Notes under the pieces: generated by a model
Databases searched by the model: none
Seen by the model: the letters and a program-made list of their open reading frames with translations, nothing else
Told to the model about the DNA's origin: nothing
NCBI GenBank assembly: GCA_017794925.1
Contig: CP051238.1
Coordinates: 4,203,021 to 4,267,020 of the forward strand
Direction: 5' to 3'
From: Aestuariibacter sp.
GTDB taxonomy: Bacteria > Pseudomonadota > Gammaproteobacteria > Enterobacterales > Alteromonadaceae
DNA length: 64,000 nucleotides
Position numbers and translations under genes: made by a program
Shown: positions 6,661-9,074 of the stretch, one piece after another
Layout: each line of letters begins with the position of its first letter
How positions within the stretch are numbered: the stretch's first letter is position 1

Positions 6661-6715
6661 TACACAACAAATGTGTGTGTAATGTGTCAAAACCACTACA
6701 AAAGTGTTGCAAACT

Positions 6716-7429
6716 ATGACAAAGCCTGATGTTTATTCCATTGAGCCCATTGGCGTACTTGAGTCGCCGTTTAAGCAAAAATTTGCTATTCCAAGGCAAC
6801 CTGCACTGGCCAAAGCCAAGGGGAAAGTGAAATTGCTGGCGCCCTACAATGACATCAATGCGCTGAGATCAATAGACACATACAGCCACCTTTGGTTGTT
6901 GTTTTTATTTCATGAAAACTTGCACAAAGGCTGGTCCCCCACCGTCAGAGCACCACGACTCGGCGGTAATACCCGCACCGGAGTCTTTGCAACGCGAAGT
7001 ACCTTTCGCCCAAACGGTATAGGTATGTCTGCCGTAGAGAATTTAGGGGTAGAAAATACTACATCAGGACTTTACCTGCATGTAGGTAATATCGATCTGT
7101 TACACAACACGCCAATCATCGATATAAAACCTTATATTCCCTACAGTGATGCGGTGCAACATGCCCACGCGACACTATTGGACGACAAGCCTGTCCCAAC
7201 GTTAGCCGTTAACTTTACAGACCATGCCCGCCGACAGTTAGCTCAACAACCCTATGAAGATTTGCCATTATTAATAGAAAATTGCTTGTCGCAAGACCCG
7301 CGTCCGGCGTACAAACAGTCCCACCAGGACGACCCTAAAACCTACCAGGTACAGCTTTATGATGCCGATATTCACTGGCAGGTATCTGACGGTGCCGTAT
7401 GGGTAACCGCAATAGAATCGTTATCCTAG
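6716..7429 (+). CDS. trmO: tRNA (N6-threonylcarbamoyladenosine37-N6)-methyltransferase TrmO
   Basis: The protein (237 residues from ATG 6716; a start at 6704 adds four residues) is a member of the TsaA/TrmO (UPF0066) family. It methylates t6A37 in tRNAs using S-adenosylmethionine. Family features are IGVLESPFKQKFAIPRQP near the N-terminus, DTYSHLWLLFLFH near residue 55, and the block with PRLGGNTRTGVFATRSTFRPN followed by GMSAV. A C-terminal domain with PYIPYSDA follows. It is the gene before proS and is read in the same direction. Confidence 0.93.
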   Translation: MTKPDVYSIEPIGVLESPFKQKFAIPRQPALAKAKGKVKLLAPYNDINALRSIDTYSHLWLLFLFHENLHKGWSPTVRAPRLGGNTRTGVFATRSTFRPNGIGMSAVENLGVENTTSGLYLHVGNIDLLHNTPIIDIKPYIPYSDAVQHAHATLLDDKPVPTLAVNFTDHARRQLAQQPYEDLPLLIENCLSQDPRPAYKQSHQDDPKTYQVQLYDADIHWQVSDGAVWVTAIESLS

Positions 7430-7505: not shown

Positions 7506-9074
7506 ATGCGTACCAGCCAGTATTTGTTATCCACGCAAAAAGAAACACCTGCTGATGCAGAAGTCATTAGCCACCAGCTTATGCTGCGTGCGGGTATGAT
7601 CCGCAAGCTAGCAGCCGGTATGTACACCTGGCTGCCAACTGGCCTGCGTGTGCTGAATAAAGTTGCCAACATTGTTCGTGAAGAAATGAACAAGTCCGGT
7701 GCCATTGAAGTGCTGATGCCAGTCGTTCAGCCTGCTGACCTTTGGGAAGAATCAGGACGCTGGGAAGAATACGGCCCTGAGCTGCTTCGCATTAAAGACC
7801 GCCACCAGCGCGATTTTGTGCTTGGTCCTACTCACGAAGAAGTAATTACTGCGCTGGTTCGCAACGAAATTAGCAGCTACAAGCAATTGCCAATCAATCT
7901 GTACCAAATTCAAACCAAATTCCGTGACGAAGTGCGCCCGCGCTTTGGCATCATGCGTGGCCGTGAGTTCACCATGAAAGACTCATACAGCTTCCATTTG
8001 AGTCAGGACTGTCTGCAAGACACTTATGATGTGATGTACAAAACCTATTGCAGCATCTTTGAAAGAATGGGTCTGGACTATCGCGCCGTTATCGCGGATT
8101 CGGGATCTATTGGTGGTAGCGTTTCACATGAATTCCACGTACTGGCCGACTCAGGCGAAGATGCAATTGCCTTCTCTACAGAATCAGACTACGCAGCAAA
8201 CGTTGAAATGGCACAAACACTGCCAGTTGAGTCAGCCGATGCGCAAGCTCTGCAATACGTGTTGGTGCAGGGAGTATCAGAAGATGACGCTGACAACTGG
8301 GTACTATTAGCCCTTTCTGCACAACACACATTGAATGACATTAAAGCAGAAAAACTGCCTCAGGTTGCCAGCCCGTTAGTCGTAGCCAGTGACGAAAAAG
8401 CACAATCTGTGCTGGGCGTGACACTAAGCGACGTTGACGTAACCTCTGTCTCTGTGCCTGTAGTGGCGGACTATGTTGCAGCTGCAGTACTGGGCGATTC
8501 ATTCTCAGGTGAATCAGTAGATCTGCGGAATATTGAAGCAGGCGATCCGTCTCCGGATGGCAATGGCAATATCGAAATCAAACGCGGTATTGAAGTAGGC
8601 CATATTTTCCAGCTTGGTGATAAGTATTCCAAGGCGATGAACTGCGGTGTACTGAGTGAGACCGGCAAACATGAAATTTTATCGATGGGATGTTATGGCA
8701 TTGGTGTGTCTCGTATTGTCGCAGCGGCAATTGAACAGAACCACGACAAATACGGTATCATCTGGCCAGATCCTATTGCACCGTTCAAAGTAGCCCTGAT
8801 TCCAATGAACATGCACAAGTCTCAGCGAATCAAAGAGGCTGCAGAAGCAATATATGCGCAATTGGTTGAACTGGGTGTCGAAGTCTTATTCGACGATCGC
8901 AAAGAGCGCCCGGGTGTCATGTTTAACGATATGGAGCTGGTAGGCATTCCACACAGTATCGTTGTTGGAGAGCGCAATCTGGATAATCAGCAAGTAGAGT
9001 ACAAAAATCGACGCACAGGTGAAAAAACTCTATTAGACTTAACAGAAGTTGCCAATTTTATTAGAACGCTTTAA
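7506..9074 (+). CDS. proS: Prolyl-tRNA synthetase with a reduced INS editing domain
   Basis: The 522-residue class II synthetase charges tRNA-Pro. The motif 2 region with [19 protein letters not shown] is at about 137-155, motif 3 with [11 protein letters not shown] at about 395-405, and the anticodon-binding domain follows from about 425. E. coli ProRS has 572 residues. The shortfall lies entirely in the INS editing domain, here about residues 224-345 against roughly 180 residues in E. coli. The helix before the TLLVKA-like strand is missing, the GPGSLGP loop is not conserved, and the segment with GKHYFG and its catalytic-site His is absent. LPQVASPL and GDPSPDG, which flank these losses, are intact. 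The frame is open throughout, so this is not a sequencing frameshift. Aminoacylation should be normal; editing of Ala-tRNA-Pro is predicted to be impaired. Confidence 0.95.

Follow-up and report, generated by a model that had tools for sequence, protein, structure and literature searches.

The gene proS lies on the forward strand of the 64,000-nucleotide stretch of DNA analysed here (the window) and encodes a prolyl-tRNA synthetase (ProRS) of the bacterial type. With the NCBIfam profiles the product scored 731 bits (NF006625) and 715 bits (TIGR00409), both above the cut-off, and Pfam recognized the class II core (PF00587) and the anticodon domain (PF03129), again above the cut-off. The features by which a bacterial-type ProRS is identified, a match to TIGR00409 or NF006625, motifs 2 and 3, an anticodon-binding domain and an insertion between the motifs, are all present. 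The alignment also located a further segment of 15 residues in the window enzyme. In E. coli the gene directly upstream of proS is tsaA/trmO; the gene setting upstream of the window proS resembles that of E. coli and looks conserved. A search for proS in the genome from which the window was taken (the source genome) counted three matches, and among the matches listed only proS and the ThrRS gene occur. The features of the locus are collected in Table 1.

Table 1. Features of proS and its surroundings in the window
Feature	Position	Strand	Basis
ORF upstream of proS	6704..7429	+	identity inferred by reading
proS, prolyl-tRNA synthetase of bacterial type, 522 aa	7506..9074	+	PF00587, PF03129, NF006625, TIGR00409, all above cut-off
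Motif 2 (16 residues), residues 140-155, present	7923..7970	+	alignment
Eroded INS (editing) domain, residues 224-360, 137 aa versus 184 in E. coli	8175..8585	+	alignment to E. coli ProS (L170); PF04073 match absent
First deletion site (29 residues lost behind residue 245); Gln250, aligned with E. coli Lys279	8238..8255	+	alignment to E. coli ProS
SDVDV, residues 308-312, in place of the E. coli GSLGP loop	8427..8441	+	alignment
Asp322, equivalent of E. coli Asp350	8469..8471	+	alignment; conserved in 59/59 genus genomes
Second deletion site, 20 residues, after residue 335 (G335); His369 segment removed	8508..8522	+	alignment; G335 ends at 8510
Motif 3 (10 residues), residues 394-403, present	8685..8714	+	alignment

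The initial annotation of this DNA, made from the letters alone, had described ProS as an enzyme of 522 residues, compared with 572 in E. coli, with a shrunken INS domain. Alignment with E. coli ProS, which that annotation had proposed as a check, bore this out. Residues 224 to 360 of the window enzyme align to residues 224 to 407 of E. coli; the span to which the change had been assigned, 8175 to 8541, runs from residue 224 into residue 346. The loss had been placed entirely within the INS domain, a claim that holds for 47 of the 50 missing residues. About 30 residues including the region of Lys279 had been thought absent. A deletion of 29 residues was indeed found, but the Lys279 position itself is still there, occupied by Gln250 (8253 to 8255), so that this residue has been substituted and not deleted. 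The replacement of the GPGSLGP loop by unrelated residues was confirmed, positions 336 to 340 (E. coli numbering) reading S-D-V-D-V in the window enzyme, as was the deletion of the GKHYFG stretch with His369, 20 residues being gone after Gly335 of the window enzyme. Motifs 2 and 3, which the annotation had called intact, are present, and Cys443 is retained.

The GSLGP loop and His369 have roles in editing. None of the markers of active INS editing (a PF04073 match, Lys279, GSLGP and His369) is retained in the window enzyme: PF04073 gave no match at E ≤ 1, whereas E. coli ProS scored 92 bits. Chance or a sequencing error was rejected as the source of the short protein, the short form being shared by 12 genomes. 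An error is unlikely because an enzyme of 522-528 aa occurs in 11 other genomes of the genus, in one of them with 94% identity.

The state of the INS domain was compared across the genus, taken to be Alteromonas (59 genomes), 57 other sequences of the family and 24 chosen enterobacteria. The 57 family sequences are what remained of 59 after two (L200, L213) had been lost to the start-codon pattern; several genera are repeated among them, and one genome contributes two copies. Alteromonas is free-living, and its genomes measure 3.5-5.2 Mb. ProS occurs in the genus in three lengths: a short form of 522-528 aa (12 genomes), a middle form of 552-554 aa (8 genomes) and a full-length form of 563-574 aa (39 genomes). 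The 528 aa form was found in A. lipolytica, A. alba and A. oceani, one ground for taking the genus as Alteromonas. PF04073 scored 28.8-53.6 bits with three longer Alteromonas enzymes and 30.2 bits with one middle form, and it did not match the short form of A. lipolytica.

His369 and Gly339 are retained in none of the 59 genus genomes, compared with 49 and 57 of the 57 other family sequences, respectively. Gly336 and Arg351 are each retained in a single genus genome (50/57 and 48/57 in the rest of the family), Pro340 in 23 (56/57) and Lys279 in 26 (55/57). Asp350 is present in every sequence of the genus (59/59) and of the rest of the family (57/57). Each of these residues is found in 24/24 enterobacteria. 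All 12 short enzymes have Gln at position 279; counted over the whole genus, 33 of the 59 genomes have Q, S, R, N or T there. In the neighbouring genus g20 both sequences (L003, L004) are without Lys279 and His369. Judged from these alignments, the shrinkage of INS in the window would be the end point of an erosion seen throughout the genus.

A core tree was built from 79 sequences with the INS columns excluded. The 12 short enzymes form one clade (support 100/98). The eight middle forms sit at two places, a single clade being allowed (p-AU 0.098). A single origin of the short and middle forms as one clade was rejected (p-AU 0.0034). The presence of Lys279 requires eight changes on this tree. 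Recent horizontal replacement of proS was considered and found unsupported: on the core tree the short clade is surrounded by other Alteromonas and by g20, a nearby group, the fork of the tree being open there.

The ratio of INS distance to core distance had genus medians of 3.24 (short), 3.50 (middle) and 4.02 (full length). It was 1.79 in enterobacteria, 1.56 in Pseudoalteromonas, 2.50 between genera for family members with His369 and Lys279, and 2.93 in Colwellia relatives, where three of the seven sequences have Ser for His369. The genus INS domain thus diverges, relative to the core, about twice as fast as that of enterobacteria, a contrast that is weaker against the other references. Median dN/dS values for INS and core were 0.14 and 0.036 in the short clade (8 pairs), 0.073 and 0.016 in the full-length genus enzymes (13 pairs), and 0.09 and 0.05 in enterobacteria (23 pairs); with dS at about 1 to 1.9 these values are rough. 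They suggest that INS is under constraint in the short clade. dN/dS shows constraint everywhere, and by itself it does not single out the genus.

Changes at His369 were seen elsewhere in the family. Six sequences of Colwellia and its relatives (L122, L128, L165, L006, L219, L222, of which L122 and L219 are on equally long contigs and may come from one genome) have Ser for His369 and Thr or Ser for Gly336, and retain Lys279; this is possibly a second way in which INS has changed within the family. In three of the genomes of this type YbaK was the sole free-standing relative above threshold. A genome of another genus carries a second ProRS gene (L208, G018 C30:9430-11310) with Tyr in place of His369, the first copy having His.

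Changes in the synthetic part of the enzyme were sought with a filter for core positions whose residue is shared by at least 93% of 58 sequences from outside the genus and is retained by no more than a quarter of the short clade. Only positions 189 and 470 (E. coli numbering) passed. At position 189 Gly is replaced by Gln in 10 of the 12 short enzymes; at position 470 Ala is replaced by Pro in all 12, and this position is also altered in most of the remaining genus. A changed synthetic site as the explanation of editing loss found nothing beyond these two positions under the filter. As far as the core residues indicate, nothing points to an amino-acid pocket remodelled to exclude alanine.

The fold of the window enzyme was modelled with AlphaFold from 40 sequences, a second check proposed with the initial annotation. 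Mean pLDDT was 81.8. Residues 1-42 and 142-152, both outside INS, had values below 50, and the INS remnant itself was modelled at pLDDT 84-92 in blocks of ten. The model superposed on P. aeruginosa ProRS with Z 32.5 and rmsd 3.7 over 490 residues, and on the mini-INS ProRS of R. palustris (PDB 2i4l) with Z 29.8 and rmsd 2.6 over 386 residues. In the model the remnant seems to be folded as a domain, and it exceeds its alphaproteobacterial counterpart in size.

A separate ProXp-ala enzyme had been proposed in the initial annotation as the implied replacement. PF04073, which covers the INS superfamily, was searched at E ≤ 0.001 in the 59 genus genomes. This limit can miss weak matches, as the degenerate INS domains of three genomes (G068, G024, G181) were found only at E ≤ 10; the laxer limit covered 20 of the 59, in one set of 16 genus genomes including the source genome and another of 12 genomes, five of them of the genus. 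As a control, matches at genome level were obtained in 12 of 14 control genomes, including Caulobacter. In the source genome (one contig, 4.74 Mb, completeness estimated at 95.5%) profile searching found no free-standing ProXp-ala. A single PF04073 protein was detected at E ≤ 0.001, and still only one at E ≤ 10. This protein (G000 C1:2814146-2814481) is YbaK: it scored 190.7 bits on TIGR00011 (cut-off 153.25) and 186.3 bits on NF007951, below the cut-off of 243. The implied ProXp-ala was thus not borne out, the sole INS-superfamily protein found in the genome being YbaK.

Of the 59 genus genomes, 56 encode a free-standing PF04073 protein in an open reading frame. There are 57 such proteins, G179 having two, and all match both YbaK models at E ≤ 0.001; the matching was read per family by best E-value, and the TIGR00011 cut-off was passed by three proteins scored. 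The second YbaK of G179 (L251, C54; short clade; 87% complete and 4% contaminated by estimate) differs from the first, is similar to the YbaK of another Alteromonas group and may stem from contamination. In G187 (L250, L259; C1:2237248-2237588) YbaK is split over two frames, which may mean that the gene is a pseudogene or that its sequence contains an error. No free-standing INS relative was found at E ≤ 10 in two genus genomes, G159 and G194 (L248, L246), whose completeness is estimated at 100% and 99%; ProRS is degenerate in both. These two appear to be without both known proline proofreaders.

Similar cases were found outside the genus. In G028 (L215) and G060 (L031), from other genera, only their own ProRS was found at E ≤ 10, and these enzymes have Trp and Phe, respectively, in place of His369. 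In one genus genome (G068) and five outside it (G019, G065, G034, G038, G130), all with an altered INS domain, only YbaK and ProRS were above threshold. Sub-threshold PF04073 matches of 13.1 bits were noted in G038 and G171.

We propose, with a probability of about 0.7, that ProS of this Alteromonas has lost post-transfer editing of Ala-tRNA(Pro) without replacement and that the INS remnant serves as a scaffold for proline activation. His369 and the GSLGP loop would have been lost first, in the ancestor of the genus or earlier. Lys279 would then have been replaced repeatedly, and the two deletions of the short clade would represent the last stage. The shrunken INS domain would be retained as a structural element on which the catalytic domain relies when it activates proline. 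The lost activity would not be taken over in trans by any Ala-tRNA(Pro) deacylase of the known superfamily; the accuracy at Pro codons would then depend on the synthetic site and on the proline to alanine ratio of the cell, and some Pro to Ala mistranslation would be tolerated. We read the remnant as an inactive domain kept for the catalytic site because E. coli ProRS with the K279A substitution is described as defective in editing (PMC3973320), and because removal of INS from the E. coli enzyme is reported to lower amino acid activation 1200-fold (PMC12547528). The longer Alteromonas enzymes may still edit, since Lys279 is present in 26 and Asp350 in 59 of the 59 genomes. With less assurance, we lean slightly towards the wider claim that the whole genus (59/59), free-living and with large genomes, has given up proofreading of Ala-tRNA(Pro) with nothing in its place, and that two species in it are also without the known Cys-tRNA(Pro) proofreader; the consequence would be either measurable Pro to Ala mistranslation or a metabolism in which editing is dispensable.

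The second of these outcomes is a special case of editing loss without replacement: discrimination against alanine, or the proline pool, would be high enough to make editing dispensable, with no extra mistranslation. We regard it as possible, short of favouring it. E. coli ProRS is reported to discriminate against Ala 23,000-fold, a value that falls to an effective 1,200 given the Ala/Pro pools (PMC10164551), and one review states that editing is needed below a discrimination of about 3,000 (PMC7373986). An approximately threefold higher Pro to Ala ratio would pass this line. By these E. coli figures, a cell with moderately more proline relative to alanine could do without editing; failing that, a degree of Pro to Ala mistranslation is to be expected. 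Two observations speak against dispensability: no core position suggests an altered amino-acid pocket, and the editing residues persist in most of the rest of the family.

It is unlikely that the genus INS domain has been changed without being inactivated, and is still a deacylase with a remodelled pocket and perhaps another substrate. Such a domain would fit the invariance of Asp350 (59/59), the low dN/dS of INS, and six positions, including W293, A327 and A338, at which the full-length genus enzymes show new conservation. The five different replacements of Lys279, the variability of the loop and of position 369, and the repeated shortening form instead a pattern of drift. In addition, 21 of 53 reference-conserved INS positions are kept at less than 90% in the full-length genus enzymes, some of them barely below this limit; the 50 reference sequences had been selected for Lys279 and His369, and the set is not independent of those residues.

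An unknown editor outside the INS superfamily might clear Ala-tRNA(Pro) in trans, which we consider improbable. A precedent dates from 2025, when an OB-fold tRNA-binding domain with no known homology to editing domains was reported to act as an Ala-tRNA deacylase in trypanosomes and yeast (PMC12021450). Domains of this kind occur in the source genome in two frames, 682 and 799 aa long, that were read as MetRS and PheT. OB-fold domains are however present in all 14 control genomes, and nothing links them to proline here. PF07973 matched two frames only in the source genome, giving no additional AlaX-type protein. One frame carries HSATH and CGGTH, the other HSCAH and CRGPH, which we take to be the editing motifs of AlaRS and ThrRS, respectively; by their sequence, both sets of motifs look intact.

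Finally, it is very unlikely that the free-standing YbaK of Alteromonas, guided by ProRS, clears Ala-tRNA(Pro) as well as Cys-tRNA(Pro): YbaK is the sole INS-superfamily protein found in the source genome and is present with its frame open in all but three of the 59 genomes, and a ProRS-YbaK-tRNA complex has been published (PMC6344894), but none was found in G159 and G194 despite their degenerate ProRS, the G187 copy lies in two frames, the source genome's protein scores 190.7 bits on the ordinary YbaK model, and YbaK is described as using a thiol-specific chemistry (PMC11295145), whereas alanine has no thiol to offer.

Editing loss without a replacement found, if true, is unusual for free-living bacteria with large genomes. 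According to one review, free-living bacteria retain robust editing (PMC10057733); losing the editing function of synthetases is described as characteristic of host-restricted bacteria, whose genomes are small (PMC10057733, PMC7373986). Degeneration of INS is already known: as of December 2013, 34% of bacteria were stated to encode a ProRS without a functional editing domain, many of them using ProXp-ala (PMC3973320). The new pattern would be loss throughout a genus with no replacement found; a search of open-licence papers returned nothing on ProRS editing loss in Alteromonas, and an earlier mention elsewhere is possible. Free-living, cultivable and with large genomes, Alteromonas lends itself to a natural test of the conditions under which proline proofreading is required. 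Its enzymes span the stages from a full-length enzyme with Lys279 to one with two deletions, which makes the order of losses and the scaffold role of INS testable. A. macleodii has been grown in the laboratory (PMC13096806). Its ribosome is reported to accept D-amino acids better than the E. coli ribosome (PMC13096806, 2026).

Among known systems, E. coli ProRS has the same architecture and synthetic motifs as the window enzyme and a similar setting after tsaA/trmO; it differs in its INS domain, which has 184 residues compared with 137 and contains the Lys279, GSLGP and His369 that are absent from the window enzyme. Translation in Mycoplasma and other host-restricted bacteria is also naturally defective in editing: in the Mollicutes editing by variants of LeuRS, PheRS and ThrRS is missing without a substitute, and no homologues of YbaK, ProX or AlaX are reported (PMC4014445). 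Mollicute ProRS is, however, of another type without INS (PMC4014445), and Alteromonas is free-living, with genomes of 3.5-5.2 Mb. YbaK is a homologue of INS and is present in the source genome; it differs in being free-standing, with Cys-tRNA(Pro) as its published substrate. The alphaproteobacterial mini-INS enzymes of Rhodopseudomonas palustris (2i4l) and Caulobacter crescentus share a truncated INS domain with the window enzyme. C. crescentus is reported to have ProXp-ala (PMC10164551), whereas none was found in the source genome. The mini-INS enzymes also belong to another lineage, and the 2i4l chain has 458 aa compared with 522 aa in the window, where the remnant of the domain is larger.
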